NCBI RefSeq assembly: GCF_964355755.1
Contig: NC_092676.1
Span: 850,288-914,287, forward strand
From: Antedon mediterranea
Taxonomy: Eukaryota; Echinodermata; Crinoidea; Comatulida; Antedonidae
Direction of reading: 5' to 3'
Length of the DNA: 64,000 nt
The translations under genes were made by a program, and so were the position numbers. Under the pieces are notes generated by a model that saw nothing but the letters and a program-made list of their open reading frames with translations, ran no database searches and was not told where the DNA came from. Positions 5,381 through 54,456 of this stretch are shown one piece after another; position 1 is the stretch's first letter; each line of letters begins with the position of its first letter.

Positions 5381-5690
5381 GTCAACGACCACACGGCAGT
5401 GTTACATCATTACGTTTTTTCTGATTTTTAAATTTCAACCGAAATAAAACCATAATTCTAGCAAAAAAATAAATAAAACTAGATCCATGCGAGGACCAAG
5501 GTTCATATTGGTGTGAAATTCAATTAATACGGTTTTTGTCAACGACCACACTGTGTTACATTATTGCGTTTATCTGATTTCAAATTTTAACCGTGATAAA
5601 ACTATATAGCAAAAAATAAATAAAACTAGCAGGGACCAAGGTTCATATTGGTGTGAAATGTAATGAATATGGTTTTGTGTTTATCTGCAT
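5381..5690. repeat. diverged tandem duplication (about 150 bp unit)
   Basis: Two diverged copies begin with GTCAACGACCACAC at 5381 and 5538. Both continue through TTACATxATTxCGTTT, AAATAAATAAAACTAG and GGACCAAGGTTCATATTGG. The second copy carries small deletions. The open frames on the - strand here cross the repeat and look spurious. Confidence 0.75.
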
Positions 5691-11655: not shown

Positions 11656-12380
11656 AGCCGGGTGTGGCAACAACCCCCGGGAATGTAATGTATACGGGGG
11701 ATCAACGTTTATCAATGTACGTAATTCATTAGCCGGGTGTGGAAACAACCCCCGGGGAATGTAATGTACATGGGGGATCGACGTTTAGAAATGTACGTAA
11801 TTCATTAGCCGGGTGTAGCAACACGCCCAGGGGAATGTAATGTAATCGGGGGATCGACGTTTAGCAATGTACGTAATTCATTAGCCGGGTGTGGCAACAA
11901 CCCCCGGGGAATGTAATGTAAACGGAGGATCGACGTTTAGCAATGTACCTAATTCATTAGCCGGGTGTGGCAACACGCCCAGGGAAATGTAATGTAAACG
12001 GGGGATCGACGTTTAGCAATGAACGTAATTCATTAGCCGGGTGTGGCAACACGCCCAGGGGAATGTAATGTAAACGGGGGATCGACGTTTAGCAATGTAC
12101 GTAATTCATTAGCCGGGTGTGGCAACACGCCCAGGGGAATGTAATGTAAACGGGGGATCGACGTTTAGCAATGAACGTAATTCTTTAGCCGGGTGTGGAA
12201 ACAAGTCCCGGGGAATGTAATGTAAACGGGGGATCGACGTTTGCCAATGTACGTAATTCTTTAGCCGGGTGTGGCAACAACCCCCGTGGAATGTAATGTA
12301 AACGGGGGATCAACGTTTAACAATGTACGTCCATTAGCCGGGTGTGGCAACAACCCCCCAATGTAGTGTAAACGGCAATG
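11656..12380. repeat. 76-bp satellite, about 10 tandem units
   Basis: AGCCGGGTGTGG recurs at 11656, 11731, 11807, 11883, 11959, 12035, 12111, 12187, 12263 and 12336, so the spacing is 75 or 76 bp with a shorter last interval. Each unit contains GGCAACAxxCCC, GGGAATGTAATGTAAACGGG, GGATCGACGTTTAGCAATG and TACGTAATTCATT. Units are highly similar, with two alternating variants (AACACGCCCAGG and AACAACCCCCGG). The array is much more GC-rich than its surroundings and abuts the LINE tail. Confidence 0.95.
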
Positions 12381-27111: not shown

Positions 27112-27945
27112 TTTGAGTTTGCAAAACTTAAGCAAACTCTGAGTTTAGCAAACTTGAGCAAACTCGGAGTTAGCAAACTCGGAGTTAACAAAACTTGAGC
27201 AAACTCGGAGTTAGCAAACTTAAGCAAACTCTGAGTTAGCAAACTTGAGCAAACTTGGGCAAACTCTGAGTTAGCAAACTTTGAGTTAGCAAACTTGAGC
27301 AAACGCTGAGTTAGCAAACTTGAGCAAACTCTGATCAAACTTGGGCAAACTCTGAATTAGGAAACTTGAGCAAACTTTGAGTTAGCAAACTTAAGCAAAC
27401 TCTGAGTTAGCAAACTTAAGCAAACTCTGAGTTTGCAAACTTAAGTAAACTCTAAGTTAGTAAAGGTAAGCAAACTCTGAGTTTGCAAACTTGAGCAAAC
27501 TCTGAGTTTGCAAACTTGAGCAAACTTTGAGTTAGCAAACTTTGAGTTAGCAAACTTTGAGTTAGCAAACTTTGAGTTAGCAAACTTTGAGTTAGCAAAC
27601 TTTGAGTTAGCAAACTTTGAGTTAGCAAACTTTGGGTTAGCAAACTTTGAGTTAGCAAACTTTGAGTTAGCAAACTTTGAGTTAGCAAACTTTGAGTTAG
27701 CAAACTTTGAGTTAGCAAACTTTGAGTTAGCAAACTTTGAGTTAGCAAACTTTGAGTTGGTAAACTTGAGCAAACTTGAGTTAGCAAACTTAAGCAAACA
27801 CTGAGTTGGCAAACTTGAGCAAACTCTGAGTTAGCAAACTTAAGCAAAATCTTAATTAGCAAACTTGAGCAAACTCTTAATTAGCAAACTCGAGCAAACT
27901 CTTAAATGAGAAAACTTGAGCAAACTCTGAGTTTGCAAACAAAAA
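27112..27945. repeat. minisatellite based on GAGTTAGCAAACTTT
   Basis: The core (about 27526-27757) is 15-16 nearly identical 15-bp units of TTTGAGTTAGCAAAC. The flanks are longer, diverged units of about 25 bp made of TTGAGCAAACTCTGAG and TTAGCAAAC. Because 15 is a multiple of three, every - strand frame stays open (KFANS and SLLTQ repeats at 27054-27862); these are not genes. Homogenised centre and diverged edges are the usual picture for an expanding tandem array. Confidence 0.95.
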
Positions 27946-35385: not shown

Positions 35386-38300
35386 ATGCAGGCTTGGAAA
35401 ATTATTGTATGCCTGACTGCAGGTATGTGTTGTTATAGTACAGCTATTCAGTTTATTGCTGAACCATTTGATACGATCGTTAATTACGGTGAAACTGTTG
35501 TGTTAAGATGTGCCTTGAAGGACCAGGGAGACAAACCGTTATACTGGCAAAATACGGACACACAACAGTTTATTAGTATGGACCATGAAATCGATCCTTA
35601 TCGATCATTTGGCAATAAAACACGTGAACGATTATCGATCATAGGAGACTCACGATACGGTGAATATAATTTACGTATTGACAATGTTACCAATCTTGAT
35701 TCGGGTTCGTACGCATGTTTATATTTTGATGTTTTCGGATATTATTCAAGACCGGCTGAAATTAAAGTGGTCAACCCACCAATGAAGGACTATCCGATGT
35801 GCATGATGAGTCCCACTACCCCTGCCGCTATCGGTGATGAAGTTGACCTGCTCTGTGTCAGTTCTGGTGGTAAACCTGCGCCTATACTATCATGGACCAG
35901 CGGTGGTAACCTGGTCCCATCGGTGTATGTATCTGGAGGAATAGGTGGTGTTACAAGTAATAAATATTCATTAATACTTAACGAAGATGATAGAGGAAAG
36001 GTGTTTACCTGCGAGGCAAGCCATGAAGCGTTTGCTGTACCAAAAACATGCACAATAATACCTATTGGTTTTAACATTCCAGTTTATTTGCGACCGAAAG
36101 TTAAATATGCGACCGAGGGGCGAAGAGCTACATTTGCATGTTATACAGACAAATCTCTTGAGCCTACGTTTCATTGGTATATTGGAAATAAGCGTCTTAA
36201 TAGCAATGACCCACGGGTAACACCAACGAAAGATGGCGTATCAAAACTAAAGTTGAGAAATCTTAGAATAAGTGACAACGGAACGAACGTTTATTGCGTC
36301 ATCACAAACCGTTTTGGAGCAAAGAAAAACGACAGTTCTTTATTACTTGTATTCCCATCCTATTATTCTGGTGGTAAAGGCACAGGTAAGGTAAACCTCC
36401 CAGAAACAGAATCATTTCCACCAAAAGATAATGGTGACAATTTACAACCTACAGTATTAAACCCAACAACAAAAAATACGAAATTGATTACAACGAAAGA
36501 CAATAGTCTATCGCCCACGACAAGTACACCAGCTACTCCAGGAACAACAGAACATACAACAATGTTCGATAAACTTATGTCCGTCAAAGATACACACTTA
36601 AGTGGTAGAACTACAATGGGAACAAAGCATTTTGTTGAAAATACGAGAGAAACACCAAAGGACCATAACACATTTGAATGGAAACCAAACATGACAACAT
36701 CTAACAATTTGTCAAACCAAAATAACGATATCATTGAAAATTCAATTGAGTCAACACAATCCCCTCATGAAGATCTTGAGACGGATGTCACACATAGAGG
36801 ACAGCAAACAAATAATGTTTATACATTAGATATTATAACGGAAGACCCGAATGAAATATGGGAAGCAACTGTGATTGCATCGATGAAAAATTACGTGTTT
36901 ACAACAGACGCAAGTGATAACGTTAACCACTTGAAATCATCACAACGTCCAATGGCATCGGCACCACCAACGACTTCAACAACAACTGACTCTGATGGTT
37001 TCAATCTAGAAACTCCTAATCAGAACCAGCCATCATCTTCAACATCCATTCAAACTCCCAAAGCATCTGATGAACAAACCGTTTCTCTCAAAATGGTAAC
37101 TAATAAGAATGTGCCTACGCCCTCTAATATTGACAACTTTAGCACTGGAGTAACCAAAACAGCAGCTACATCTATGCTATCAACATCTGGTACAGCAGCA
37201 GTAATTGATTCAGAGTCATTATCTCCATCAGTTAGTTCTCATTCAATTGAAACAAAGGATATTATAAATGAGACAACAAATTCACCTCATACTACTTTGC
37301 CTATAACCTCACCAGCTTCAACAGAAAATTTTACAATTGGTCTACAAACGTTTGTGAAAGAAGACGTAGTTCCTGTAAAGTTAGTAAATACAAACAAATG
37401 GAAGGTTCTCTCATCCACAGCATCTTATAGAATAAATTCAACTACAGAAAATATCGAAATTGAAGCCCAGAACTTTAATTACACTACTCCAAAAACAGAA
37501 GGACAAGCTACGAACTCTCCAACCACGAAAAGTGATATGGTAACTAGGGACGGTTATACAGTTAGAGAAGATACAAATATGGCGACAACTGTAAGTATGG
37601 CTACAGAGAAAATGAATAATATGTCAGCATCTACATCCGGAAAACCCTATGTTAGTGATTCTCCATTTTCTATGACAAATTCATCAACTGAACAAACCAA
37701 AATTCGCATTTCTAAAATTTATCATAGGAGTGATAAAATGAAGGCAACTGATGTAGGAAATACGCCCAGTTATGACAATTATCAGACAGACGCAATGATG
37801 CAATCTGAAAAGAGTGTTTCCGAGAAACCATATTTGGAAAATGTTTCCGAGAAACCATATCTGGATGATATAACAGATTTGGTATATAATATGCAAGACG
37901 CCAAAACGTCAACACAAATCAAAATTACTGATGAATCAATTACGTCAACAATTTCAACAGAAGAAACAACAGAAAATATTGAGCACGCACCTAATGAAAT
38001 AGAAATGACCAGCATAGCATCTGGAACAAACAAGCAAATACTTACTACAGCAATCAGACAACCCACCCACGTGTCTACAAAGGAAACAGTCGTCGCAAAA
38101 CAAACTACGTCACAAATCGTTACAAATCCTGTAACAAAACTAATCAGAACAATTATGAAATCAACAGAAAGAATAACATCAAGCAACTTACAAAACACGG
38201 ATATAAAAACTATTTCTCCACTATGGAAAACAGAAACACTTGTTGATGATACTAAAGACACTACAACTGTTGCAACTCCAGAAACAAGTGGTACAAAACG

Positions 38301-38994
38301 AACGACATTATTTCATACGGAGGATCAAACTCTTTCTACAGTCCAACCTATCGAACAAATACAAACTACAAAATTGAATAGTGATACGACAATAAACATA
38401 CGTTCTATAGAGAATAATAGACGCCGAATTTCAACACCAAGTATAAATGATGTTCACACAACAATATCGCAATCGCACAAAACTCATAATGCACATTTTT
38501 CTACAACTTTGGAACCTACAAGTGACCAAAAACAGACAACGTCGTCAATTATTAATGATCATGTTGATACTATAAGGAAACCTGATCCTACGTTACACCC
38601 AAAAGTGATTCCGTTTGGAGAAAATATTGATACAATTCCTGTTGTTAGAGTAACAACTATTATAAAAGATGTTAACAAACAAACAACGCCGGACTTGTCT
38701 AAACCTGGTTTAACAAATTCTGATGATTCTGTACCAAATACTCCTGAAACTTTATTAAAAACTTTGAAATCAAACAAAACACCCAGACAATTAGACGATC
38801 CGACCATTTTGAATGCTGACGATGAAATCAAAACAGCAACTGTTCGTAGAAATGCTAAAATCATAATGGCGGCAATTGTAGGAATGGCCGTTCTTAGTGC
38901 ATTTATTTTGACTATTTTTTCAATTCTTATCAAATGTTTTAGTAAAAGCAGAAATGGTGTATATAATCATAATCATCCTCATCGATGGAGCTGA
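35386..38994 (+). CDS. single-exon three-Ig-domain membrane protein with long mucin-like stalk
   Basis: An intact 1202-codon frame encodes a type I membrane protein. I place the start at the ATG at 35386, since the open frame extends upstream only through a TTG. Residues 1-20 form a signal peptide (MQAWKIIVCLTAGMCCYSTA). Ig1 (about 22-130) is V-like, with Cys42, Trp54, Cys111 and DSGSYAC. Ig2 (131-228) has Cys157, Trp170, Cys209 and an extra pair, Cys139 and Cys222, as in the second domain of CTX-family proteins (CAR, ESAM, JAM-like). Ig3 (235-325) has Cys252, Trp264, Cys304. N-glycosylation sequons occur at NKT77-79, NVT100-102 and NGT298-300. Residues 326-1153 are a Thr/Ser-rich, probably O-glycosylated stalk. 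A transmembrane helix (1159-1182) precedes a 20-residue tail ending HNHPHRWS with no ITIM or ITAM. A role in cell adhesion or recognition at the cell surface is inferred. The paralog 14 kb downstream on the same strand has the same architecture. A gene this long without introns is unusual for an animal Ig receptor. Confidence 0.93.
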   Translation: MQAWKIIVCLTAGMCCYSTAIQFIAEPFDTIVNYGETVVLRCALKDQGDKPLYWQNTDTQQFISMDHEIDPYRSFGNKTRERLSIIGDSRYGEYNLRIDNVTNLDSGSYACLYFDVFGYYSRPAEIKVVNPPMKDYPMCMMSPTTPAAIGDEVDLLCVSSGGKPAPILSWTSGGNLVPSVYVSGGIGGVTSNKYSLILNEDDRGKVFTCEASHEAFAVPKTCTIIPIGFNIPVYLRPKVKYATEGRRATFACYTDKSLEPTFHWYIGNKRLNSNDPRVTPTKDGVSKLKLRNLRISDNGTNVYCVITNRFGAKKNDSSLLLVFPSYYSGGKGTGKVNLPETESFPPKDNGDNLQPTVLNPTTKNTKLITTKDNSLSPTTSTPATPGTTEHTTMFDKLMSVKDTHLSGRTTMGTKHFVENTRETPKDHNTFEWKPNMTTSNNLSNQNNDIIENSIESTQSPHEDLETDVTHRGQQTNNVYTLDIITEDPNEIWEATVIASMKNYVFTTDASDNVNHLKSSQRPMASAPPTTSTTTDSDGFNLETPNQNQPSSSTSIQTPKASDEQTVSLKMVTNKNVPTPSNIDNFSTGVTKTAATSMLSTSGTAAVIDSESLSPSVSSHSIETKDIINETTNSPHTTLPITSPASTENFTIGLQTFVKEDVVPVKLVNTNKWKVLSSTASYRINSTTENIEIEAQNFNYTTPKTEGQATNSPTTKSDMVTRDGYTVREDTNMATTVSMATEKMNNMSASTSGKPYVSDSPFSMTNSSTEQTKIRISKIYHRSDKMKATDVGNTPSYDNYQTDAMMQSEKSVSEKPYLENVSEKPYLDDITDLVYNMQDAKTSTQIKITDESITSTISTEETTENIEHAPNEIEMTSIASGTNKQILTTAIRQPTHVSTKETVVAKQTTSQIVTNPVTKLIRTIMKSTERITSSNLQNTDIKTISPLWKTETLVDDTKDTTTVATPETSGTKRTTLFHTEDQTLSTVQPIEQIQTTKLNSDTTINIRSIENNRRRISTPSINDVHTTISQSHKTHNAHFSTTLEPTSDQKQTTSSIINDHVDTIRKPDPTLHPKVIPFGENIDTIPVVRVTTIIKDVNKQTTPDLSKPGLTNSDDSVPNTPETLLKTLKSNKTPRQLDDPTILNADDEIKTATVRRNAKIIMAAIVGMAVLSAFILTIFSILIKCFSKSRNGVYNHNHPHRWS

Positions 38995-41003
38995 TTGGTG
39001 TATGTAAATGAACAGTATTGTAAATGTATATATAGTATTGCCATATATCAAAGAAGTGTACATAAATAACGTTTCATTATCAATTTATAAAAACAAAAGA
39101 ATGAGTTACTTGTAAATATGACTTTCGTCCTTTACTTTACTATTAATTTAGAGCTACTAATGGAGTACCGTACAAACACAAATACTATTTTAAACAAGTT
39201 TCAAATAATTGTAGGTCATAAAAACTGTACCAACATGTATATAATGTGATTGAGTTGCTTCAGTTTTCGTCTTTCACGGTAAAATTATTATCTAAAAAAA
39301 GACTGCTTGTATATGGACGAAACAAAAGAAAAACTAGGAATGTCTCATCTTATTCAGGAAACTAAAGGTAATCCTTAAGTTGACCAACAGGGAGGGTGAG
39401 GCAGTATTTTGTGACTCATTTACTCTAATACATTAAAAACACAATGACTCACTTATTATATTTTAAGTAATCTCAATTATTGAATAACCTGTTTATAATA
39501 CAAATTTAAAGCAATTATGTTAATTTTATTTGAAACATGATGCTGTATATCATAATTAATTCAATTAATTAATTTCAATTACTAGAACATTTGATAAATT
39601 AATTTATAATAATTTCTTGTATATAAAGGTGTTTTATCAATTAAATTTTAATTTCAATTAAGCTATATGAAAAATAAATAATAAAGTATGCCTTATTGCC
39701 TATAGCAAAATATCACGTGACTGGTAGGATAATACTTGTAAAATGTTTCTTCTTCAAAGTACTACATGTTCATTATTGTTTAATTCAGCTGTTTTCTATG
39801 ATTGATGCTTTATTTTGTGTGTGGAATACATTAAACGGTAGAAAACGTGTATGTAACGTCTCATTTGTTTTTATCTCGTCATATTTAGCAAGTTTTCTCT
39901 TCGGACGGAGATGAAGTATACGGTAATTTCATAAACGATATTTCTTTCTTAACGAATAATCATTCGCCCGGTATACACCGTTTCTTATCGAGACAGTATT
40001 TAGTCGTTCTTCCTCTTCCGAAACGAAAGATCACTAATAAACTTTTCTATCGAAACGAGTAGAGACAGAATGAGCTAAATAAATATAATAACCCCAAAAA
40101 CATAAAATAAAGAAATTTGTTACATATGAATTAAATTCATAAGTTACAGTTTCTTAATTTTTTTTATCCTAAATTGTAGAGTTTTTTTTTGTAAATCAAC
40201 CAGCGAAAAATCTATTAGTGCTGTACAAATATACACACAGCACAGTTTACATTATGACAATATTTTGTTTTTCTTACCTCAGTTACGTTTTGTGAGAGCA
40301 CCCTCTATTGAATTTCACCCAACTTTTTCAAACTCTAGAGGGCTAGACAACTTTTATTGAAATGAAGTACCACGATAGTTTTATATTATTCGAAAAAAAC
40401 AAGTAATTTTGTTCTTCATAACGGAGTTTTCTTGTATACCGCCCTCATTATCTAAAAAAACTAATAATGGCGGAGCTAGTGACATTTCTGTTCAAGAGTA
40501 GGTCTACTGTTAAAGTGGTGCATTAACCAATTGGTTAACACATGCAGCATGTAACCAATAAAATAGGTAACCAAAAAAATAAGCATGTGACATAATAGTC
40601 TATTCATTTAAAAAAAGGTTAAAATAACAGTGTGGTGTGTAAAATAACTCAATTGTTGCAAAATATTACAAAACTTATTAAATAAAAAATATAGTAAATA
40701 AATTTGTAAATAAGAGCAACACAATCTGTTCTTACAATCAAATGCTCAAATGTAACGGTCAATTAAAAATAATATTTCAAAAATAAAAAAAATTATTTCA
40801 ATGCACGTTAAAAGAAGTTACTACAATGTTTTAAAGGGTATTTAAAAACCTTTTAAAAGATAGTCATAAAACCTTGGAAACTAAGAATTAAAATTAGCTC
40901 AGAAAATGTATATCATATGCTTTGCGGAAGAAGCGTCTTGCTGGAGAGGAAGTACCCTATTTAACGCGCGAGATTAATAATCATTTGGCTCACAGCATGC
41001 ATA
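38995..41003. other. 3' flank of first Ig gene; otherwise gene-free
   Basis: The 3' UTR of the Ig gene should lie here. AAATAAATAATAAAGT at 39672-39686 is the first strong poly(A) signal. No other gene is supported; the 39696-39914 frame lacks motifs. Confidence 0.45.
39673..39685 (+). terminator. candidate poly(A) signals of the first Ig gene
   Basis: Two AATAAA hexamers lie at 39673 and 39680, about 680 bp after the stop codon. No closer canonical AATAAA was found, so a 3' UTR of roughly 0.7 kb is inferred. Confidence 0.4.
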
Positions 41004-41086
41004 TTCTCACTAGCGTACACACCGTACGCGCAGGCAATTTGACCAATCAGAATCGCTTGCGTTGCGTCCTTGTGGAAATAAAGCTT
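41004..41086. mobile_element. MITE family A, right-half fragment
   Basis: TTTGACCAATCAGAATCGCT, TGCGTTGCGTCCTTGTGGAA and ATAAAGCTTA remain. The left arm is reduced to CTCACTAGCG. Confidence 0.6.
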
Positions 41087-44000
41087 ACGTGTTTCTTTGA
41101 TAGGTTTGTTAGGCTAAATTAATATTCTCGATTTAATACAAACGCATACTGTATGCATCAAGGTAGCATTTTACTTTCTAGATAAGATAGCTCTAGCGAT
41201 TTTTTCAGTGCATTTCATCCAATTACTCCACCACTTCGCGTACGCCTACTCACAATGTTGGTTGATGTCTTTCCAAGTTACGCTTGAAAAGCAGTATTTC
41301 AAACCCAATTAAAATCAACAAAATAACACAAGTGTTTCCAATTTTTAAATCTCTATTTAATAAATATAATTTATATAATTTATAATTTTGGTGTCTAAAA
41401 TATCGTACTGACTCTGATAATTACGGTCAACAATTGTAATAGACAAAACTGTGAAAATGACGTGGCCGTCTGGTGGCAAGCATAGACCCACATCTGTTAG
41501 TCTGGTACTGGCAAGAGAAGCAGGCTGATGGATGCTGTAGCTGGGCCCTTAGTAGTGACTCATAACCCGCGTTGTACTGCAATGAAATTTTGTCAGATCA
41601 TACGAATAATCTGATTCTCAATGGTAACTTCTGTGCGTGGTCAATTATTGAAGCCATTGACCAAAGTACCAGTTAGCCCTGTCGCGATTTTCTATACAAC
41701 GGTACTAGAGGTCAATAATAAATTGTCTACAATGGCCTATTGTAATCTTATTACTAAATGACTAGTACAAAGTGTAACAGTGCGAATAAAATCCATAGTC
41801 GCCAACATCCTCAAATTCGAGAAAGTTTATACGTATTGCACCGTAGGTCCATTACATGCTAAATGTTTTGAAGTTACAGTAGCGGTGTATCGTTTTCACG
41901 ACGCGCCACGCGGTTACGCGACTATCGAGCAAAAAATCATTAAACGCATGCTCATATTTTTTTAGCCTACGCACAATTTAAATAGGCCCACAGTAACACA
42001 ATTACAGAGAAAAGTTTCATGTTTACTCAAACTAATTTCTGTTATATATGATGGGTCAATAAAAATTACTATGATTATACTCATGGCTGTGAGTAATGTT
42101 TTAGGATATTAAAACCCAACCTAACCTATTCCAGATATATTATTATGACTTAGCTGTGCGAATGTAGTATCGTATTTATAGACAACTTTAGTTTTTGTAA
42201 GATACTAAATTCCATCTAACCTATTTTAAAAAGGTCAAGTTGATATTACAATCTGCACACCTTTTGTAGACATAAGTCATCACATTTTGTTGCACTTTCA
42301 CATTTGTTTCTGTCACGCAAAATGTGAATCAAGGCTCGCACAATCTGAGGTGTGTTTTAGAAACTAGGCTGCTAAATTTAACTCGTAACAAGTTATTAAA
42401 GTCTGTGGTTCTACAGGTTATTGGACGAGTTAGATGACCCCTGTAAATGGGATTTTAAAATGAGTTTACTCCGATAGGTACAATGTGTAAAATTAAACGT
42501 ACTCCTAAACAAATAAACAGCACATCAGAAAGGAGCGAACATGATTTTGTTTAAATTGTCTTGGCACTGTTTATAAGAAATTTGGAAATTCCATATTACG
42601 AATAGAATTCTAAGAAGCAAGTAAACCCACCCACATTGTCTATTAAAATCTGACATAAAGACAGAAGAGTAGAATAAAAACGGGAAACTATGTTCATATT
42701 CCCCAATCATTACATTTGGTATTGCTTCTTAGTATATTGGAAACTTTCCAACACAATCTTTTCAAATCTATGGCTGTTAAATGTTAAACTATTATTCTAC
42801 AACAAAATACGTTTATATAGAATGTCCCTCTCCTAACAAAAACCTAAAGTAAGATAGCTGATTTTTGTTCTCTTTTGTGAGGTTCACTCACCTTTATTTC
42901 CATTTCAAAACATAACTGTTACATAACTTTGTTTATGTTTCCAGTCTTTTGATGTTTTTGTATATATTATATTTATTTAATTTGTGTTAATGTATAGTAG
43001 GCTTACGTCCAACCTAACCTTTCCACCTGATTGCACATTTTTGTAGACATCGAAGTTTTTACAAAAGTGTTTTTAGCCGATAATGTTTTGTAGTTTTCAT
43101 ACCATACTCTTTACATTAAATGTGGTGCTCTTTTCCTGTGCATTATAATGAACGATTTCCGGTTGCAATGCCGAAGAAAGTAGGCCTACACTGAAAAGCA
43201 ACCCACTATCGTCATAAAGCTGGTTAGATACAAAAAACACATCTTAGAATAATAATATTTATTTACAATCCATATTACATACAATTATATATTTTGCTGG
43301 AAATGATATTTATTTATTTCAGTGGCGAATAATTTCGACTTAACTTTTTTAGAATAAACAAAATTACAAACGGTCACCGCAGAAGTATCACCTAACACGT
43401 CATTGCTGGGAACGAAATTGATTTTTTCTTTGAAAAATACTAGCGCTAACTGATAATGCAATAACTATTTCGCAAATCAGTGAAAGTTTGAGATTATAAC
43501 CTTCAAAATAACCAAACACGAAACTAAAATTTAAAAAATAAACACTATAAAAAAATGAAACCGGTTTTTACCAGATAGTTAATAGTATCAGATTATTAGA
43601 ATCAAAACACAACTCAGAGTAAATGGCAAAATAATGGACAGTATTAAATATACGTTTTGTTTACTGATTAGCAACATTTGATGAAATTACAACTCATCTT
43701 AGCTAATCAGTCGGATGTTTATAAGCACATGTGCTTACATCTAATGTATGTATCCTCTAGATATACCTTAGAGGGACATTCATTAATATTCAGTAATTTA
43801 TACAGTTCCTACTTACGTTTTCCTCTTCTTCTTCCTGTAGCTTCTGATACCTGCAGAGCGTTTACTGGTCATCTTCAATTAGTTCTTAAAAGAGATACAA
43901 AGTGTTAATAATTGTCAGTCTAAAACGCTGCCTTGTATTAAGTGGTTCGTTATCTTTATATGAGTGGTGATTGAGACTAATGATTCGAAACAAATGGAAA

Positions 44001-46672
44001 GTATCTGTACCCTTACAAGTTAGAAACTACTTTGTACACATCAACGCATGGTTTATATCTCAGAATAGTTCTTTCAAAATGATCAATCTGGTGTGAACTA
44101 TACGTACATTTGTGAAAATTAATTATTACAATTTTTACTTCGTTTTTGAAATAAAAACCAGTTATTTCGAATAATATATAATTTAATTCAGCTACAGAGA
44201 GAAACTTTAATTATTATTGCCGAAATGTTAAAAACTGGCTTAGATCTTTTTTTCTTAAAATAACTTCAACAGTGTCAAAGTTTTTTAAGTTCAAACACTG
44301 AAGAAACAGTAAAAATATGTTTAAATTCAATTAAGTGCGCGATGTGAACATTGTCATATAACTTTAAACAATCCAAAACATTGAATATTTCTTTCTCAAG
44401 ATAACTCCACTTCACTTTAGCAATTAATTTAATTAGTTATTATAAAAATGTTTTCATTTTCTGACAATTGTTGTCATATGTATAACAATTGATATATTGG
44501 TACTCTCTAGTACACTCACCGATTTGTTCTTTTAATGCCTGACAAATATGCATGATCTTAAAGTTACAACCTTATCATATTTACAGAAGGCGAGCGGGTG
44601 TACAATTATATAACCAATAGTGCATTATATTCTTCAGAGAGTCAGACACAAGAATGTTTCACGTAAGAATAATTTAATCTCCATCAACTAAAGACTTTAT
44701 CATTCTATGTCTGCTGTCATGAGACATAGTTCCCACAGGGTAGTTTTCAAGTGACTAATACTATACTTTTTTATTGGTGAACTATGATTCATAATATATT
44801 ACCGATTTCAAACTGTATAAAATTCGTATTTAGCGCTATAATTTAGAAATACACTTATTCACTTCTTTTTTATATCTGTTTTTACTATTATTGAATGTTT
44901 TATTGAACTTGTATTCTAAAGAGATGTCAAGTAAGATGTTTCACTTCATAATCACAGGGATAGAGTGATAAAATCCTACGTTTAACAAATGTCTGCTTGA
45001 TCACTCAACTAGGGTGAAAATGTTTGGTAGCAATCGTCTCATTAGAAACGTCATGGCATGAGTTCGATTTAGTCACGTTGATATAAATCTACATATAGTA
45101 AACTTATGCTTATTTTAAAATCACAGAAAAACTTTGAAATGTTGTCATATTGTCAAAGTGATCGAATGAACTAAACTATAAGACTGACTAGCCAGATTAA
45201 GTATTCACTGACTAAGGATTACCCACATTAGGCATGTATATACAGATGCCATTACGCGATAAATTAATTGATTTGAAACATGGATAATTTCATAAATTTG
45301 AGACAACGACGAAGTGAACAGTTTAAGACAAATTAATGTGGGAGGTTGAATAAATGCTTTTGCAAAAGTTTAAATCTTTACTGAACTATGTGCATTTACT
45401 TTGTTGAACCAATACAACTAATTCATTCAATGTTAATAATATCGGAATGATGTCTTTGCTCTTTTAATTGATACAATATTTCGAGCTATAGTCATCGCTT
45501 ATCATTTCCAAAATATGTCAGCGACATTGAATTCCTGAAAAAAATCTTTGCATATTTTCGTTTCTAATGTTTTAGGCTTAACAAGGATGCGATAAGCATG
45601 TACACAATTACAGCCTAAGTCATTAATTATTGTTCTTAATTGTTGATTAGTTTGTGCTTACTATCAGTAAAGCAGGTCTAAAGATACAGATATGTTTGGA
45701 TATCTGAAGGATATCAAGAAATCATAGATAACTCTACGATGATGATTATTTTGTCGAATGAGCTGATTTAGTAATTAATTTGTGCGGAACTAATTCCATA
45801 TTCGTCGGTTTTAAGGAAATTCTTTAATTGGATAAATTGTCGGTATTGCTATGAATGTCTTAGTGGTGTGAGAAAGTAAACCTTATTTTTGTAGAGTCAT
45901 TTAAATATGGAGATTTAATTTCAATGTTTATCCACTCTATTTTATTTCGTCAGTGATAAAATGTGTAACGAAGGAACAACGAATAATGTTTTTTTTTCTT
46001 TAGATAATGATTTTTAATAATGAATATTGAAACGATACTTCATAGAAGATTTTTTCCAAGAAGTTTATGGAGACTTGGTCTTTCTAGAGTAAGAGTTAAA
46101 ATGAATACCTGTAATAACAAACTATGTATAATGTAGGCAATCTGACCGTAGAATTGAGTAATTTAAAAATGAATTTCTTAGTTGAGGAATATATTTCACT
46201 GAATCAAAAGATCACAAGTATAGTTATTAATATAAATATCATTCGTCAAAGCAAGCATATGTGTTCCATTAACTTTAGGGAAGTTAGGTTTAAATCTATC
46301 AACATCGACTTAAAAGGAGCCTAAAGTAGTTATATTGAAAGTAGTTCGAAGCCTTGCTAGTGCATTACCATAATATAGAGACATATCACTTATTTTCACA
46401 GGCTACAGTTCTGTATACAACATCTAACCAGTTACATACATGTATACAATGTATCTACAACATGTTCTGTTCCTTTTAACTGTTGTTATAGTATACAGTA
46501 ATAGTCTTTTACGTTAGCGAAACTTACTTTAGCGAAACTTATACTTTAGCGATACATAAAATTATTCAATGTCACAAAATGATGACCACGGTTTCTTTTG
46601 ATATTTTTTTTAATTGAGCAAAGTCATGACTACCGTAAAATTGTTGTCAGAAACAATATAAGTTATATAACT
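41087..46672. other. long gene-free interval between the Ig paralogs
   Basis: No gene could be supported in 5.5 kb. A moderately GC-rich patch at about 41460-41580 (GGCCGTCTGGTGGCAAGC) may be an old SINE or transposon piece. Short frames at 41780-41965, 42525-42710, 43678-43908 and 46124-46324 have no motif. I saw no degenerate Ig-domain copy here. Confidence 0.4.
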
Positions 46673-46774
46673 TACGTCCTTGTAACATACAGTACGTAGA
46701 ACAGCCAGGTATTTTGACCAATCACAAGTAATGTATTATCCGAACACTTTGTCATTGGTCATTGATACCCACTA
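46673..46774. mobile_element. possible highly diverged MITE family A copy
   Basis: TTACGTCCTTGTAACA, TTTGACCAATCACAAGTAAT and TTTGTCATTGGTCATTGATA resemble the family-A arms and inverted core. The termini are not recognisable. Confidence 0.4.
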
Positions 46775-47110
46775 TGCGCGCGCGTGTGTTTATGTCAACT
46801 TACGACGCTTCGAAGTACTTGGTCACCATAGAGTAAAGAACGGAGGGTGTCACTAACGATTAAAATCTATGTAAATAGTGAAATACAGTCTCTACCTAAC
46901 ACAGAAAAAATGAGAGATTAATCGATTGACGAACCGGGGGTATGATTCATTTGTAAGTTAATCCACCGGGAACATAGACGTTCTCTTTGCTGTGTAATCA
47001 ACGGCCTTGCAGTAGTGTAGGGTGAGACACAAGGGAAAACAATTGCACGCGTCAAGAACAGTGATTCAAATATACTTTTCATACAATTCAAATTAATATA
47101 AAAAAAAAAA

Positions 47111-47191
47111 GTCCACCCGATAAAGTCGAAAGAAATGAGTCTACCCACTGAACAAAAAAAATGGAATGACAAGTCAAGTATTTTAACATTA
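47111..47191 (+). repeat. isolated unit of the 47.5-kb diverged repeat
   Basis: CGAAAGAAATGAGTCTACCC, AATGGAATGACAAGTCAAGT and ATTTTAACATTAATTTT match units of the array at 47560-48030. Confidence 0.6.
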
Positions 47192-47559
47192 ATTTTTATC
47201 TGAAACTTAAATTGACATTCCTACAAGTGGTATTCAATCAAAGTATAAGCCCCAACATTTAGGTAATGTAATATTACATAATCTAATTTGTCGTAGTAGT
47301 ATTCATTGCTATGGGACTTTACGTTTTACTTTTCATATTTAGAGCAACATTGCGTGCAGATATTTTATTATGGAATAGAAAGTAGAAACATTAATGTAAT
47401 TGTACAGAGATGTATTTAAAAGGGGTGTTTCTTTATTAAAGGTAAAAACGATTAATATAAAACAAAATCAACTAAAAAATAATTATAAACACAAGAAAAA
47501 CTTGCTCCTGCTCCTTATATTTGATAAATGAATACATAATTCTAACCATAGTATGGATT

Positions 47560-48030
47560 GATTAGCCAAAAGAAACGAGTACAAAAAAATCTGCTTAATT
47601 TAGTCATGCACTTAAGTCCTACTCTAGCCAAAAGAAACAAGAATTTATTTATATTAGTTTATCATGTTTTGTTAGTTCTATTGTGCCAAAAAAAAAAAAC
47701 AAGTATGCAAATTGCAAAAAGAAAAACGGAATGAAAAGTGTTTTATCATTTGGTATTCCGAAAGAAAAAAGTCTACCAATTAGGGAAAAAAATTGGCAAG
47801 TAAAGTATTTTACGATTAATGATATTAGTTATAGTCTAGTCAAAAGAAACAAGTCTACCAACAAGGAAAAAATGGCAATTGAAGTATTTTACCATTACTG
47901 TTAATATTGGTATGCATTTAAGTTACACTCTAGCCAAAAGAAAGAAGTATACCAATTGCACAAAAATGGAATGAAAAAGTTAAGTATTTTAACATTAGCT
48001 ATTTTGTTGTCATGCATCATTGCTAAGTCC
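47560..48030 (+). repeat. diverged tandem repeat (about 60-115 bp units)
   Basis: CTAGCCAAAAGAAACAAGT-like starts recur near 47567, 47625, 47675, 47836 and 47931. Most units continue with TCTACCAATTxxxxAAAAAA, TGGAATGAAAAGT and AAGTATTTTAACATTA. Unit length varies and copies are diverged. The 47683-47904 frame is a reading through two units. Confidence 0.7.
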
Positions 48031-48189
48031 TACTTCAGGATGCTGTGGCTTCTGTCAACTATGGACCTTTGATTGATCAACGAAAGTTTGAAAAGGAATA
48101 AACAACGGAGACAAGAGAGGAAACATCAGCCAAAAATAAATTGAGGATTAACACCTTCTTGAAAATACCCCAAATTAATTAATACATTA

Positions 48190-48320
48190 ATCAATCAATC
48201 CATCATTACGTTTTATTTGACACACTAGTAGAAGTTCTCCTCACGGCATTCAAAACATATAAAGCAGGATCGGTTCAATATGCTGTTTTTTAAAGTTGTA
48301 TAGCGGTTTTTCTTCTCCAT
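48190..48320 (-). mobile_element. possible 3' end of an antisense LINE
   Basis: TAATCAATCAATCCATCATT followed by ACGTTTTATTTGAC is, on the - strand, an AATAAA-containing 3' end with a GATT-type tail like that of the LINE at 10201-11651. No coding remains. Confidence 0.35.
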
Positions 48321-48575
48321 TTATTTCTCTCTTTTGATACGGTTTAGCAAGGATAGGAGAAAGAAAAAGAAGCAAACTTCAAAAAAGATGAAAAAACGGC
48401 CTTCAATGGAAATACGTTTTAAGAGTTGTTTTAGATGTGTATTAAAACAAGTAAACGGTAACAAATATAATGAATGTATAGTTGATAACTAAGCACTTAT
48501 TAGTTGAACAATGTATCAATGCCATCCTGATTTGTAAGTACCAGACTTAAGTACCAGACTTGACTTAAGTTGTAA

Positions 48576-50084
48576 TTCGTTTCGTTTCGTTTATTAAACA
48601 ATTCTCTACACATACAAAAAAATACAAGATGTTACATAGTAAAAAGCATGTCTAAAAGGAAGCCTAGATAAGTTTTTTGTTACAAACAAATAAACTTTAA
48701 GCCTAGACTCCCTGCAGTAGCACACAAAATAACAATGGTTGGGACAAATGAAAAACCATATATACCAATATAAAAAAACAAAACAAAAATTAATAAAAAT
48801 AATAAAGTGAAAATAGAAACCCCAAAAAGAAAAAAGCGAAACACCGGACAGACAAGGACTTAAATCAGTCGAGCTCATAAAAAGACATTAAAAAAAACAT
48901 TAGTAAAGAAAGATTTACCAGCATTTTATTTATTTATGAATTAATCGTCATATGCAGTGATCAGTGCTTGTTTAAGATTTAGTTTGAAACTAGCAATTGA
49001 TGGTTTGTTAAAACGAGAGAGAAAGGTAGTGAATGCCATAATTTGGGACCACAGAATAGAATTGAGTGACGTCTCAGATTTGAAATAGTTAATAAAGAAG
49101 AAGTATAGGTTTGGGCGAATCTTGTATTGTGACTATGATAGGGTTTAGAAAACAGAGAAGCGATTTGGGAAGGCAAGGAACTCTGATGTGAGCGGAACAT
49201 AAAGAGGCAAATTTGAAGTTTTTTAAGGTCGTAAACATTTAAAACGTTATACTTATAAAACAAGGATTTGGTATGAGATTTGAAAGAAGTGGAAGCGCAA
49301 AGTCTTAATGCTCTTTTTTGAAGTCTAAAAATGTTATCAATGTGTGTTGTTTCGTAACTGTCCCATGGAGATAAGTTAAGAAATTTATCAACAGTGGTGG
49401 CCCGGGAAATATTGCAATATGAGATATAAGGCAAAACTAAAGTGTTATAAAGAATTAATAATATATTAGAAGGAAGGGATGATTTTAATTTATTTACAAT
49501 AGCTATGTTTCTCGCGATAATGTTACAGATTCGATATATGTGGGGCTTCCATGTAAAATTAGAGTCAATTGTTACACCTAAAAATTTAGTTTCATTGAGA
49601 CGCATGATTTTGTTATGATCAATGTGTAAACGATGGCCATCGGAAAATATAGATTTGAGTCCAAACAAAATATAATTTGTCTTAGAAATATTAAGGGACA
49701 ATTTATTGAGTTTAAACCAATTAGTAACTTTAACAAGTTAGGAGTTAATAATTTGATATAGAGATGTCTTGTTGCTGTGGGAATACAATATATTCGAATC
49801 ATCAGCAAAAAGAATAAATTTTAAAAGTTTAGAGGAATTTGGCAAGTCATTCCAGTAAAGTAAGAAAAGAAGAGGGCCTAATATAGAACCCTGGGATACA
49901 CCACAGAGCACACGTGACAGTTTTGAGTTAGCTAAATTAAAGTTAGTAAACTGTTGTCTATTGGATAGATAGTTTGAAATCAGTTTAAGAGAAAGGCCTT
50001 TGACACCTTAAGTGTATAATTTTTTTTCAAGTATATTATGGTTTATGGTGTCAAAGGCCTTGCTTAAGTCTAAAAAGACAGTTT
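48576..50084 (-). mobile_element. decayed antisense LINE, 5'-truncated
   Basis: On the - strand the element runs from the palm motif of the reverse transcriptase to a tail of AAACGAAACGAAACG (48576-48598 on +). The 3' UTR covers about 48600-48940. It differs in sequence and tail type from the element at 10.2 kb, so it is a separate family of the same broad CR1/L2/Jockey-like group. Confidence 0.8.
48941..50084 (-). pseudogene. reverse transcriptase pseudogene
   Basis: Reading leftward: FLDLSKAFDTINHNIL, CGVSQGSILGPLLF, FADD in place of YADD near 49800-49810, TKFLGVTIDSNFTWKPH, and GPKLWHSLPF. Two in-frame TAA codons interrupt it, at 50008-50010 and 49738-49740. A frameshift near 49020 moves the C-terminal part into another frame that ends at 48941. 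The 5' part (endonuclease and early RT) is missing. A perfect 15-bp inverted repeat (AAGGCCTTTGACACC at 49993-50007 and its inverse at 50047-50061) lies within the RT. It is dead and older than the LINE at 10201. Confidence 0.88.
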
Positions 50085-52716
50085 ACATTTTCTACACTTA
50101 CTTCAAAACAATGAATACAAGTGAATAATGTTAAAACCACTTCATGTTTTAAAAAACCAATGTGGACCATCGAAAAAATTAGCGCCTCCAATGATCTGAG
50201 GAAAAATAATTGAATATTCATTCAATAATGAATGAAATGTGTCAGACATATTACCTAACAATTTACGAATTTAAATAAAACTATCTAAACTGTACTATTT
50301 AGTTATCAAACGGTTTGATTCTTAGCTGAGACGGCTGCCACGTCACTATACCGTAATGGATCATGATTACACAATAAACATTGATATAATCTTGTAATTC
50401 TTGTACATAACGAGGAGTGTAGAATACGATAGTAGATCTTGAATGATCTTTTTATAGAACTGATTTTTAAGGAGCCAGGTACACAATCCCCGTCGAATCC
50501 CCCGGGAATCAGGATATAATACAGTTTATACGTCTGCGCATGCGTAGTTATAATTGAATTGCGACTAGAATGGGGGTTATCGTAAAATTCCTTATTTTAC
50601 GCCCTGTAGACATGTGATCCCGAGGCGTTTACTAGCAATGATATGTAGATGACTTTGGACAAGTTAGGCTGAAATATGCTTGTTAATTAACCATTTAGTA
50701 GATATAATCATGCAGTCACGTGACGTCATTCTGACAAGACGATGTAGGTCATCAAGAAGAAAAAAATGTGATTTTGTCAACTAACAATTTAGGAACATTA
50801 TGTTAACAATTTTTCTGTTTTTAATACATCTCAGAGCAAACATAATGTTAATGTATATTTTATATGCAAATGACAATAAATGGAAGTAATTTTCCACTGA
50901 TGAATGAAAAAGAAAGTAATAACCAATAAAATGACTACGTAAGTTGCTGAAAATAGTGTATGCTTACTTTGGGAAAAAGAATTTCTGAAGCCTGGGATAT
51001 ATCCTGTGTTCTATCAATAAATTTACAAAAAAAGTTTTCATAATATTCTTTTTAAAAGAAGACCTGGAACTGACATTTGTGACCTCTTTAATATTTAACA
51101 TAATGATGCATCGTTTTCGGATTAAGTTCACTGAATGACTCTCACGCACCTAGATGTCATCTTTTGTATAACTTTCTTGGCTTTAATAATCTTTGTATTA
51201 GTCACTTTCCCGTACCCTTCACTCTGGACAGTTTATTACCGTAATAATAAATCAATAATCTACAGTATTTCTTTATTTCAATTTATCTACATACAGTATT
51301 AAAAACTAAAACACAATTTATAACGTCTGATATCTGATCGCAATAGGCATTACACGGGTTATGGCGTCCACAAAGACCGATACTCTTGTAAAAACAGTAA
51401 TTGTGAATAGTTCATGAACCACCAATCAAGAAGAAGATAATAACATAGCTGAAAAGAACTGACATTAACAAACTTGAAGAGAACAATGCATGGTTTAATA
51501 AAATTTAAATTATGTTTAATTTGCAAGAGTGTACATGAAAACTAACAATTCTTGCCAAAGGTTATCGGAAGGTGCGAACGTACGTCATACAAAAGGTAAG
51601 TGCTTTCTCCAATACATTTTTACTAATCGTACCATCAGTTCAAGTATAGGCTGCCTTAAAAGACTTACAATGGTATTATTGGATAAGAAAAGTAATTTAA
51701 TCAGAAACAATCAAAACCTTGATTTAGTGTCGCAAAACAAAACTTTCACAAAGAAACGAAATAAGTTCAAAGATGCGAAATATAATGTATTTTTTCCAGA
51801 TCGTCGGTCAGTGCACTGATGTGAATGATGCTGGGAAGTTTCCAGAAGAAACAATTTAAAAAGACTGAAAAAAGAAAAACTTGACGCAACGCCAAAATGA
51901 CCTTAAACATGTTATTACATTTGAAGGCATTTGACTTTGCTTCAAACATGTACAGTATAAATTATCAGGGACTTTCCTGAGTGTTATAAAGTATGCTTAA
52001 ATATTATTATCGCACAATATAAAATAAAGACTGAGATTACAACAGTGAAAACATAATATAACTGCGTTGTGACAATGATTGGGTTCATGAACCAAACCCA
52101 TTGAGTGGATACAATAGACCTTCTAATCCAGGTAAATTACTAGGTCCGAACGCATCCTACAGTATGTTTGACACTATATGTATTTTGGAGTGATAAAAAC
52201 ATAATTATAGAGTTTATAGAATCTATAATATTATTCATTCTTAGTAGGCTCTATTTTATGAAATTAATCACACTGTAGAACGTTGGTTTATTAACTTACA
52301 ATTACACTAACACACAAATGTTCTAAAGACGACTTCAATTTAATACAACAATGAATGATTTCACACCCACCGCCAAATTTGAGTTTAAACCGTCTTATAT
52401 TTAAAATGTCAAAGAGACTGAATAAATAGCAAACAGCTGTATACCAACACATAAAATCAAATCGACGCATTTGTCTTCAGGTCAGTCAGATATTTCCAAT
52501 TAGAAACTTTGAAATGATGTCATGGGGTTTTATCCAATGAACCAGTCATAGGAAGTAAACCTAATTGACGGGAAAACACGAAACATTCATAAAGGCACTG
52601 GCATACAGAGTGCGTCAAACACTGACGAAACCTGCGTGCAGTCAATACTTACGCGGGCAGGGAGCACATTTCAAGATATTGTATTTTAAAGCTAACACAC
52701 TCTAGGTATTTTAATC
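50085..52716. other. gene-free interval upstream of the second Ig gene
   Basis: No gene is supported. The 51529-51819 frame has no known domain. GTCTGCGCATGCGTAGTT near 50530 resembles an NRF-1 type site but no gene start follows. The promoter of the second Ig gene should lie in the last few hundred bases; CATTCATAAAGGCACTGG near 52584 could be a weak TATA-like element. Confidence 0.4.
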
Positions 52717-54456
52717 ATGGAACTTAACTTGATTTTGGTGTTGTTTACATTTGGCTTGGCCAGTGGGTTCGAATTTGTAATTGAACCAAAAAGCATAACA
52801 GCTTTGAAAGGTGAAGATGTGTTGTTATCCTGTTCGGTGACGGGAGTTTCTGATCGTGGGACAATATTTTGGCAGCGAGTGAACACTGGACGATATATTA
52901 GTATGGACTATGTTGTAGATCCATATGATATGTTTGGAGATGACATGAAAGATAGGTATAGAATCATCGGCGAGCCGTCTGTTGGTGAGTACTCATTGTA
53001 CATAACCAATGTTAAGAGGTCAGACATTGGCAGATACGCTTGTTTATATAACGAGCCATCTGGTTTAAAGACAATCAGTCGTCATGCCACGCTAAGTGTA
53101 CTAGTACCACCAGGTCCCCAGTATCCAAGATGTCGAGTTGAGCCCGAGGGAGCGGTTGTTGGCGCCGCTGTTGATCTAATCTGCGACTCAGAAGGTGGGC
53201 TTCCACCAGCAACTCTGACATGGTTCCGTGGTAATGAGATTTTAGATGGAAATTATGGTAAATCAGGAGCAATGACAGAGAATCGTTACCGAAAAGTATT
53301 ACAAGCCACCGATCGTGGAGTAGAATTTGTTTGTGAAGCCTCGGGAATCGCGATTGGAAATACTTTGCGTACTTGCTCATTAACTCCGTTAGGTCTTGAC
53401 ATTTCTGTTCAAATAAAGCCACAAATTAAAGTTGCGAATGAAGGTTCTAGAGCAACGTTTACATGCATTGCACCAGGTGATATGAACAATTATGACGTGT
53501 ACTGGTCACTCGGCGAAGAAGAAATACATTTGGAAGATCCAAGACTATCATTTAGAGATGGTCATCCTCGATTAAGAATAGATCCTGTCAAATTGAGTGA
53601 TCATGGCAAAATGGTTGCATGCATAGTATATGACTTTCATGGTTTTCGGGGCAATGCCTCATCTGTACTATTTGTTACTAAAACCGAAATAGAACAACCT
53701 TCTAAAAATACAATTGTATTCGAGATGGAACCAGCGTCTGAAATACCTACTAAAATAAGTGTAGTTGCATCGGTTGAAGGAGCTGCTAATGGTGTGTTCA
53801 CAGCAGATCTGCCCGCTGCTGACCAGGCTACCGCTGGAAATCCTAACTCCGGTAGTGTTAATCCTTCTGTTTCACCAAAAGCAGGTAAAGAAATGGTAAC
53901 AACTAAAACTGATTCACCATCGCCCTCACCAGGTGCTGAAAAAAATAATCCATCGATGATATTTACTAATCACTTTGCAATGCCAACTGTCGGTGACAAT
54001 GCAGAAAATGCAACCACACCACCACCAATTAACCGAGGTGACACCCCAAACCAGAACATCCAACCAACAGAGATCTCAACTGAAACAAATCAGACCGCTA
54101 ACCCAATGATGGAAACAACAGCATATGTTACTGATGAACTCAACGCGAACGAAGTAGAATTACCTGAACTACAGAGTGACGTTCATGCAGAAGATGACGT
54201 CGAAGCAACTGAAGAAAATGTTAACGAAGTAAACGATGACGCGCCAGTAGTTGTCGATACTCCTGCAGACAACAAGAATGAAACTAACAAAGTAGCAAAT
54301 AATTTAGAAGGTACAGATACCGATACTGTAGCAGACGAAAATGAAGAAACAGCTGTAAGTGGACAAACCATTCGAATTAGGATCATCTGCAGTGTGCTTG
54401 CAGTTGGAGTAGTTTTAATAGGTTTTGGATTTTGGAGATTTAGCAAGACACGATAA
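52717..54456 (+). CDS. single-exon three-Ig-domain membrane protein, paralog of the 35-kb gene
   Basis: An uninterrupted 579-codon frame begins at ATG 52717. Residues 1-17 are a signal peptide (MELNLILVLFTFGLASG). Ig1 (18-130) has Cys39, Trp52, Cys109; Ig2 (131-228) has Cys156, Trp169, Cys206 plus the extra pair Cys139 and Cys220; Ig3 (233-321) has Cys250, Trp263, Cys302. Domain order, cysteines and the Ig1 signature ISMDxxxDPYxxFG match the upstream paralog. The stalk (about 322-551) is Pro/Thr-rich at first and Glu/Asp-rich near the membrane, and much shorter than the paralog's. A transmembrane helix (about 556-573) is followed by only six residues, RFSKTR. The protein probably works outside the cell as an adhesion or recognition molecule, or signals through a partner; no signalling motif is present. 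The nearest known families are the CTX/JAM group for domains 1-2, but no orthologue can be assigned. Confidence 0.93.
   Translation: MELNLILVLFTFGLASGFEFVIEPKSITALKGEDVLLSCSVTGVSDRGTIFWQRVNTGRYISMDYVVDPYDMFGDDMKDRYRIIGEPSVGEYSLYITNVKRSDIGRYACLYNEPSGLKTISRHATLSVLVPPGPQYPRCRVEPEGAVVGAAVDLICDSEGGLPPATLTWFRGNEILDGNYGKSGAMTENRYRKVLQATDRGVEFVCEASGIAIGNTLRTCSLTPLGLDISVQIKPQIKVANEGSRATFTCIAPGDMNNYDVYWSLGEEEIHLEDPRLSFRDGHPRLRIDPVKLSDHGKMVACIVYDFHGFRGNASSVLFVTKTEIEQPSKNTIVFEMEPASEIPTKISVVASVEGAANGVFTADLPAADQATAGNPNSGSVNPSVSPKAGKEMVTTKTDSPSPSPGAEKNNPSMIFTNHFAMPTVGDNAENATTPPPINRGDTPNQNIQPTEISTETNQTANPMMETTAYVTDELNANEVELPELQSDVHAEDDVEATEENVNEVNDDAPVVVDTPADNKNETNKVANNLEGTDTDTVADENEETAVSGQTIRIRIICSVLAVGVVLIGFGFWRFSKTR

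Follow-up and report, generated by a model that had tools for sequence, protein, structure and literature searches.

We analysed a 64,000-nucleotide stretch of the Antedon mediterranea genome (NC_092676.1, positions 850,288 to 914,287), here called the window. On its forward strand lie two genes encoding immunoglobulin (Ig) domain membrane proteins. Gene 1 (35386..38994 on the scale of the window, used for both genes) encodes 1202 amino acids and gene 2 (52717..54456, with its ATG at 52717) encodes 579. Both are single open frames with no internal stop, and we call them intronless with respect to the coding part only. The chance of frames this long is ~1e-41 and ~1e-20 per start, respectively, for the base composition of the window and with codons treated as independent. 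Each protein comprises an N-terminal hydrophobic segment, three Ig domains, a stalk, one transmembrane (TM) helix and a short tail. Pfam Ig_3 scores above cut-off for the whole proteins (1.3e-18 for gene 1, 4.8e-23 for gene 2) and matches three stretches of each at E <= 0.1; V-set and I-set match too. The first-pass annotation of this DNA, which described two single-frame three-Ig genes, is borne out in this respect.

In gene 1, a V-like domain 1 (35452..35778; Pfam V-set/ig) is followed by a C2-like domain 2 with an extra cysteine pair (YPxC ... KTC; 35779..36072) and an I-set/Ig_3 domain 3 (36073..36351). The order is the same in gene 2: V-like domain 1 (52774..53109), C2-like domain 2 with the extra cysteine pair (53110..53397) and Ig_3 domain 3 (53398..53676). 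Pfam matches and the family alignment support the first and third domains of both genes, and the alignment also gives domain 2 and the domain 1 borders. The ectodomains of the two proteins are 36-39% identical. A hydropathy window placed the TM helices at 38869..38931 and 54370..54432, the latter with two arginines at its outer edge, and the N-terminal hydrophobic segments are read as putative signal peptides by hydropathy alone. The gene 1 stalk is 816 amino acids long and Ser/Thr-rich (29% serine plus threonine), with 11 N-glycosylation sequons. That of gene 2 has 206 residues, 18% of them serine or threonine. The cytoplasmic tails have 20 (gene 1) and 7 (gene 2) residues. AlphaFold models of the two ectodomains alone reached a predicted local distance difference score of 65.6 in the best of five models (38-54 in the others) and a predicted template-modelling score of 0.35. 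The 50 matches listed by Foldseek were tandem-Ig proteins and antibodies, with query-normalised template-modelling scores of 0.20-0.31. These models point to an Ig fold and to nothing beyond it.

An intron shared by the family and lying before the ATG was considered and not adopted. Acceptor-like sequences do occur upstream of both window ATGs, yet over the 58 family genes that had sufficient upstream sequence, 3' splice sites are not clearly enriched ahead of the start codon (six of 58 fell below 0.05 against shuffles). Mean acceptor scores were -0.28 near the ATG and -0.49 further upstream. The first-pass annotation had also described a third locus in the window, with ordinary splicing. This was not confirmed. 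Profiles of each of the three domains, an F-strand motif and the best 150 of 790 V-set candidates in the genome identified no other convincing Ig locus in the window. A few window frames matching the domain profiles (E 0.03-0.75) were examined and dismissed. The fragment EDQGSYWC, at window positions 5473-5574, lacks surrounding Ig context.

Next to this pair stand many relatives. The genome comprises 354 Mb in 18 contigs, of which 11 are large (22-41 Mb); its chromosomes or contigs carry C-numbers below. As the first-pass annotation had proposed, we searched it for linked single-exon copies. Of 124 matches to the gene 2 ectodomain, 123 fall in an open frame not shorter than 300 amino acids, although many ended before domain 3. 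The union of three protein-query searches identified 177 places on eight chromosomes, including 96 on C3, 32 on C7 and 29 on C11. As a limited number of candidates was scored, this number is likely a lower bound; conversely, in a few cases a single broken gene accounts for more than one place. Frames of at least 300 amino acids (median 476) contain 172 of the 177 places, and four places carry a stop. We read 63 frames in full; remaining members are called intronless by frame length. The window genes are members of a large, old intronless three-Ig family of well over a hundred genes.

The family is clustered. The pair, earlier described as standing in tandem, is indeed related, but that description was too narrow: the two genes are half of a four-gene cluster on one strand (C7:807612-903966). 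Further clusters lie at C3:18.70-18.91 Mb (53 places), C3:11.73-11.90 Mb (22) and C11:15.81-16.13 Mb (21). In the array at C3:11.87 Mb there is a gene every 1.6-1.8 kb, with 113 to 332 bases from a stop to the next ATG; the three larger gaps hold genes cut at sequence-extract borders. Two places (C7:6327067-6330539 and C7:6415631-6420362) hold broken or interrupted copies, in which domain 1 is in a different frame from domains 2-3, once at a distance of 3.7 kb. As a control, we took PF13927 matches in the same genome. Among the best 150 of 1551 candidates, the median frame was 122 amino acids and 21 reached at least 300. Hence, Ig domains in this genome as a rule have an exon each, and the family departs from that rule. 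V-set matches, the best 150 of 790, were likewise of two kinds, long frames and one-domain frames.

Could the frames be processed pseudogenes or assembly artefacts? Some copies are broken, in fragments on C7 or by the four stops noted above. Set against this are the long frames around 172 of 177 places. In the arrays described below, Ig domains and tails also have a mean ratio of nonsynonymous to synonymous divergence (dN/dS) far under 1. We regard this explanation as highly improbable.

The family has a distinct cysteine signature. Eight near-invariant cysteines, each present in 58 to 60 of 60 aligned ectodomains, form one pair in domain 1, a canonical and an extra pair in domain 2 and one pair in domain 3; median pairwise identity of these ectodomains is 24%. 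The extra domain 2 cysteines lie in YPxC near the domain start and RxCSxxP near its end, in 60 of 60 ectodomains. The extra pair, a putative pairing here, is reminiscent of the CTX/CAR-type C2 domain. Among the 60 listed of 892 matches to the domain 2 profile, both extra cysteines fell in no best stretch. No Sushi domain is among the Pfam matches of the window genes, which are to Ig families only. For family member L001, Pfam gives Ig families and a sub-threshold CD34 match.

Among the solved structures listed as matching by sequence are Robo, DSCAM, SYG-2, DCC, titin, Roughest and Kirrel. Domain-level similarity to DIP, SYG, DSCAM and Robo would suit neural or developmental wiring molecules that follow a Dpr/DIP, SYG or DSCAM-like logic. 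However, this similarity is generic to Ig domains, because 926 distinct chain sequences pass 1e-10. Mosaic tandem arrays, which the family has, would also be unusual for wiring genes. A wiring role is improbable.

To place the window genes, we used a tree of 43 family members and one spliced gene (44 rows), built by a quick method and with many weak branches. Members on C3 lie on one side of a branch with support 99, with one C10 row among them. Members on C7 and C11 cluster by chromosome beyond all shuffles. This pattern fits a scenario in which early spread to several chromosomes would have been followed by local growth. Genes 1 and 2 are sisters (38% identity; support 90 in the Shimodaira-Hasegawa-like approximate likelihood ratio test) and the genome search with the gene 2 ectodomain likewise gave the other as best match. 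The window pair, as nearest relatives at 38% identity, therefore arose by duplication, but an old one.

The spliced gene lies at C8:8753015-8759016 (reverse strand) and has the order V-V-V-C2-I-TM in nine open pieces, read as exons. Among them are pieces for the three V domains and for a domain 2 carrying the extra cysteines; the third V domain and domain 3 are each divided between pieces, and TM helix and tail have a piece each. Candidate consensus donors in phase 1, picked by eye, occur at six of the nine pieces; split points within domains are unplaced. A search with its domain 2 exon gave ten matches at E <= 0.01. The match to itself lies in a 135-amino-acid frame, and the other nine, in frames of 273-1213 amino acids, are at places of the intronless family. 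The spliced gene and the family share the order of the last three Ig domains and TM helix, and the extra cysteine pair of domain 2. They differ in the exon pieces and in two additional V domains. Intron loss by retrocopying is supported because the spliced gene has the same V-C2-I-TM order, extra cysteines included. Most likely, the family ancestor lost its introns at once by retrocopying, a direction of change that we infer. The idea of a retrocopied ancestor with later duplication in a larger cluster, already present in the first-pass annotation, thus gains from the clusters, the long open frames and the spliced relative, while the retrocopying itself is unproven. With nearly the whole family intronless and one spliced relative at hand, its origin, spread and diversification can be read from the DNA.

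Two arrays on C3 have unequal divergence along the gene. In the array at C3:18.77 Mb (8 genes), mean synonymous divergence (dS) is 1.18 in domain 1, 0.95 in domain 2, 0.20 in domain 3 and 0.10 in TM helix plus tail. Values in the C3:11.87 Mb array (15 genes) are 1.31 for domain 1, 0.85 and 0.69 for domains 2 and 3, and 0.30 for TM helix plus tail. Synonymous difference was greater in domain 1 than in TM plus tail at p<0.001 for 21 of 28 pairs (C3:18.77) and 82 of 105 pairs (C3:11.87), the pairs not being independent; the reverse was never seen. Identity along the frame steps from ~50% to 90-100%, as between L010_1 and L010_2, whose flanks are 41% alike upstream and 46% downstream. The flanks of L053_4 and L054_1 are 95% alike upstream and 53% downstream. 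Both flanks are 88-95% alike for L009_2/L009_3 and L050_4/L050_5, as in recent plain duplication. Protein constraint alone is insufficient because synonymous sites show the same identity step. Gene conversion or unequal exchange inside the frame can account for the mosaic identity, as a candidate process suggested by these steps.

Diversifying selection on domain 1 was considered but is not supported at the domain level. Domain 1 averages a dN/dS of 0.20 and 0.41 in the two arrays; for close pairs the averages are 0.34 and 0.39. Pairs with saturated distances were left out of these ratios and of the dS means above (for domain 1, for example, 87 of 105 were kept). Single pairs with dN > dS number 0 to 2 per Ig domain and array. 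In signal peptide and stalk there are up to 12 and 15 such pairs, respectively. In the short stalk of the C3:18.77 array, where synonymous changes are very few, dN on average exceeds dS.

Tail length over the 63 frames ranges from 0 to 465 residues (median 89). Motifs were counted in 40 non-redundant tails and compared with 500 shuffles; the tails are mutually related. The pattern [IVLS]xYxx[ILV], resembling an immunoreceptor tyrosine-based inhibitory motif (ITIM), occurs 25 times in 17 of the 40 tails, compared with 12.5 expected. Similarly, YxxI/L/V occurs 81 times (47 expected) and PxxP 53 times (32 expected). For none of these three did any shuffle reach the observed count. Smaller excesses were seen for T-x-Y-x-x-V/I (6 versus 2.0) and YxN (27 versus 17.8), which ~2% of shuffles matched. 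YxxM was at expectation in the same tails. A few motifs adjoin the TM helix. The excess is compatible with signalling, which it would suggest rather than prove. Within the window cluster, the tail is 15 residues long in the neighbour at C7:839931 and 465 residues long in the fourth member (C7:807612), where it holds eleven YxxI/L/V motifs. A scan for charged TM helices flagged one of the 63 frames, gene 2, in which the second and fourth of the 21 residues scored as TM helix are arginines. We read these arginines as probably outside the membrane. The scan found no charged TM residue in other short-tailed members.

We put a probability of roughly 0.6 on the following reading. The window genes would belong to an old intronless family of type I membrane proteins with V, extra-cysteine C2 and I domains, which was retrocopied, spread, grew in tandem and became mosaic in part by conversion. 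A spliced gene of this domain order would have lost its introns at once. The retrocopy would have seeded several chromosomes, and each seed would have expanded by tandem duplication. In the two C3 arrays, ectopic gene conversion, or else unequal exchange, within a frame free of introns would keep TM helix and tail alike, in one array domain 3 too, and leave domain 1 diverse. The proteins may act in surface recognition and bind partners in trans via domain 1, and perhaps domain 2. Long-tailed members could signal by tyrosine motifs read by SH2 proteins. The short-tailed window pair would serve as ligands, adhesion partners or co-receptors and not as signal transducers. Function is inferred from sequence throughout. 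The setting is most likely echinoderm cell-cell recognition, whether immune or self recognition or adhesion and fusion of the kirrelL type.

Several observations weigh against this reading. With its three V domains, and a long branch placed inside the tree without support, the spliced gene is a relative and not a proven parent. No scar of retroposition was noticed, with no formal search for target-site duplications or poly-A tracts. Some pairs of the younger array resemble each other in the flanks as well, as under plain recent duplication. Mean dN/dS is below 1 in every Ig domain of both arrays and, therefore, no positive selection is visible at the domain level. Neither window gene has tyrosine motifs of the tested kinds in its tail. 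Finally, most echinoderms in the five classes have 36-46 diploid chromosomes (PMC3308324), compared with 11 large contigs here. Papers are given by PubMed Central (PMC) number, and all statements resting on them refer to excerpts.

Ettensohn and Dey, in 2017, reportedly placed kirrelL in a family of intronless genes closely related to one another. In sea urchins, skeletogenic cells require KirrelL, a membrane protein with Ig domains, in order to fuse (PMC8903837). The gene lacks introns in all echinoderms examined, is present in a crinoid and has been proposed to stem from retrotransposition (PMC8903837). Upstream DNA of kirrelL from other classes, the feather star included, drives expression in sea urchin embryos, and for five of six species expression in skeletogenic cells is strong (PMC8903837). 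Lineage specificity, which the first-pass annotation had assigned to the pair, is thus only partly upheld, since an intronless echinoderm gene of this sort, with retrotransposition already suggested, was on record. The family resembles KirrelL in its intronless coding part and as membrane proteins with Ig domains, a likeness by description only. The excerpts of PMC8903837 describe no family this large, no tails with tyrosine motifs and no mosaic arrays. An intronless echinoderm Ig gene is a known kind; the size, tails and mosaicism of the present family look new. A large intronless echinoderm Ig family with tyrosine-motif tails was not found among the top open-licence PMC results and may exist.

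Compared by description only, the present family may be relatives of kirrelL. They could then be developmental adhesion or fusion proteins of the skeletogenic lineage, expanded in this animal and with no immune role. KirrelL itself, crinoid form included, sets the precedent (PMC8903837); the solved structures listed as matching domains 1-2 include ectodomains of Roughest, SYG and Kirrel, and the stalked, short-tailed build of the window pair is in keeping with adhesion. However, copy number, dense arrays, mosaic genes and tyrosine-motif tails exceed the apparent needs of a fusion protein, and membership with KirrelL is a matter of description and not of sequence comparison. We consider this account rather unlikely. 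Whichever account is right, the family gives a wider context to kirrelL, described so far, in the excerpts, as a skeletal cell-fusion gene. It is also a testable list of candidate recognition receptors for echinoderm biology.

The Alr genes of Hydractinia encode Ig-type receptors in a cluster. To our knowledge, sea urchin Sp185/333 proteins lack Ig domains. Alr genes, candidates for allorecognition, have ITIM motifs and immunoreceptor tyrosine-based activation motifs (ITAM) (PMC12065747). They are cnidarian, and their likeness to the family lies in description and not in exon structure or domain signature. In the tunicate Botryllus, FcoR proteins combine V and C2 Ig domains with long tails carrying Y-x-x-I/L/V, ITIM and hemITAM motifs, and each is expressed with a fester partner without known signalling domain (PMC12065747). 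Like the family, fester and FcoR are clustered, diverse Ig membrane receptors (PMC12065747). They differ in having Sushi domains, alternatively spliced fester exons and a tunicate locus, whereas the family here is intronless with no Sushi domain. Diverse receptors with ITIM/ITAM-like motifs are implicated in self recognition in tunicates and cnidarians (PMC12065747); their logic is common with the family and their gene structure is not. Sp185/333 (SpTransformer) is a clustered immune family of >40 genes under 2 kb with two exons, for which a diversification mechanism has been proposed (PMC3091723). It shares with the family its echinoderm host and its clustering, and differs in having two exons.

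By analogy with Alr, fester/FcoR and vertebrate paired receptors, the family could be an immune or self-recognition repertoire of long-tailed (inhibitory or activating) and short-tailed receptors. Its clusters, birth and death (C7:6.33 and 6.42 Mb hold broken copies), conserved tail cassettes joined to mosaic ectodomains, and excess of ITIM-like and T-x-Y-x-x-V/I motifs are in line with this. In addition, one cluster mixes the 465-residue tail of C7:807612 with tails of 15, 20 and 7 residues. Two things do not fit: no positive selection is seen at the domain level, and short-tailed forms lack a clear mid-TM charge for pairing with an adaptor, the arginines of gene 2 being at the edge. We regard this repertoire as a serious possibility, short of even odds. 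A more specific proposal, which we put forward tentatively, is a germline repertoire of ~170 or more intronless receptors in which old and diverse binding domains would repeatedly be joined to few homogenised TM-tail cassettes, some of them ITIM-like. The absence of introns would let gene conversion run across the whole coding frame. If true, this would be an invertebrate immune or self-recognition system built from retrogenes. Clustered mosaic Ig families with tyrosine-motif tails are raw material for immune and allorecognition systems.

Other Ig loci were noted in the same genome. L035 (C11:2110200-2113900) is an intronless relative of 1048 amino acids; its Ig domains, three V-set stretches among them, exceed three in number, and its tail has 221 residues. 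L077 (C9:22129000-22134000) and seven other places represent a further multi-copy type with long frames of 1342-1377 amino acids; in one copy, Pfam finds two Ig domains and nothing else over the 753 residues read. Tandem V-set exons ~1.1 kb apart, with 18 matches, most equal in score, lie at C8:5122566-5140872. This array sits within an extended stretch of one-domain Ig frames (C8:4.7-6.1 Mb), and a second such stretch is found at C8:0.38-2.3 Mb.

Elsewhere, an ordered cluster of 12 homeoboxes occupies C2:7.83-8.21 Mb, with one on the opposite strand. We take it to be the ambulacrarian set from Hox1 to 11/13c, with four posterior genes (Hox9/10, 11/13a-c), which suggests an echinoderm, perhaps a crinoid. 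COX1 gave no match. One contig ends in CCCTAA repeats. Feather stars may have n = 11; the 36-46 diploid chromosomes given for most echinoderms (PMC3308324) argue against that number or would make the present animal exceptional. Hox4 is present in crinoids and starfish and absent from the sea urchin (PMC3308324). Chromosomes number 22 in a sea star, 23 in a sea cucumber and 20 in a brittle star (PMC11310086).

Within the window, palindromes resembling Alx1 sites occur 16 times versus 7.8 expected, and 0 of 100 shuffles were as high. However, the closest one upstream of gene 1 is 702 bases away, and upstream of gene 2 the distance is 4.9 kb. A frame for a reverse transcriptase of the long interspersed nuclear element (LINE) type at 10201-11400 (forward strand) matches RVT_1. 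Another, judged by eye, lies between the two receptor genes at 48979-49737 (reverse strand). A 437-amino-acid open frame at 62303-63616 (reverse strand) has a PAM2-like motif just below the Pfam cut-off (18.9 versus 20 bits). Tandem arrays were found at 11656-12358, where a 76-base unit is repeated 9.3 times, and at 27131-27940, with a 15/25-base AGCAAACT unit.

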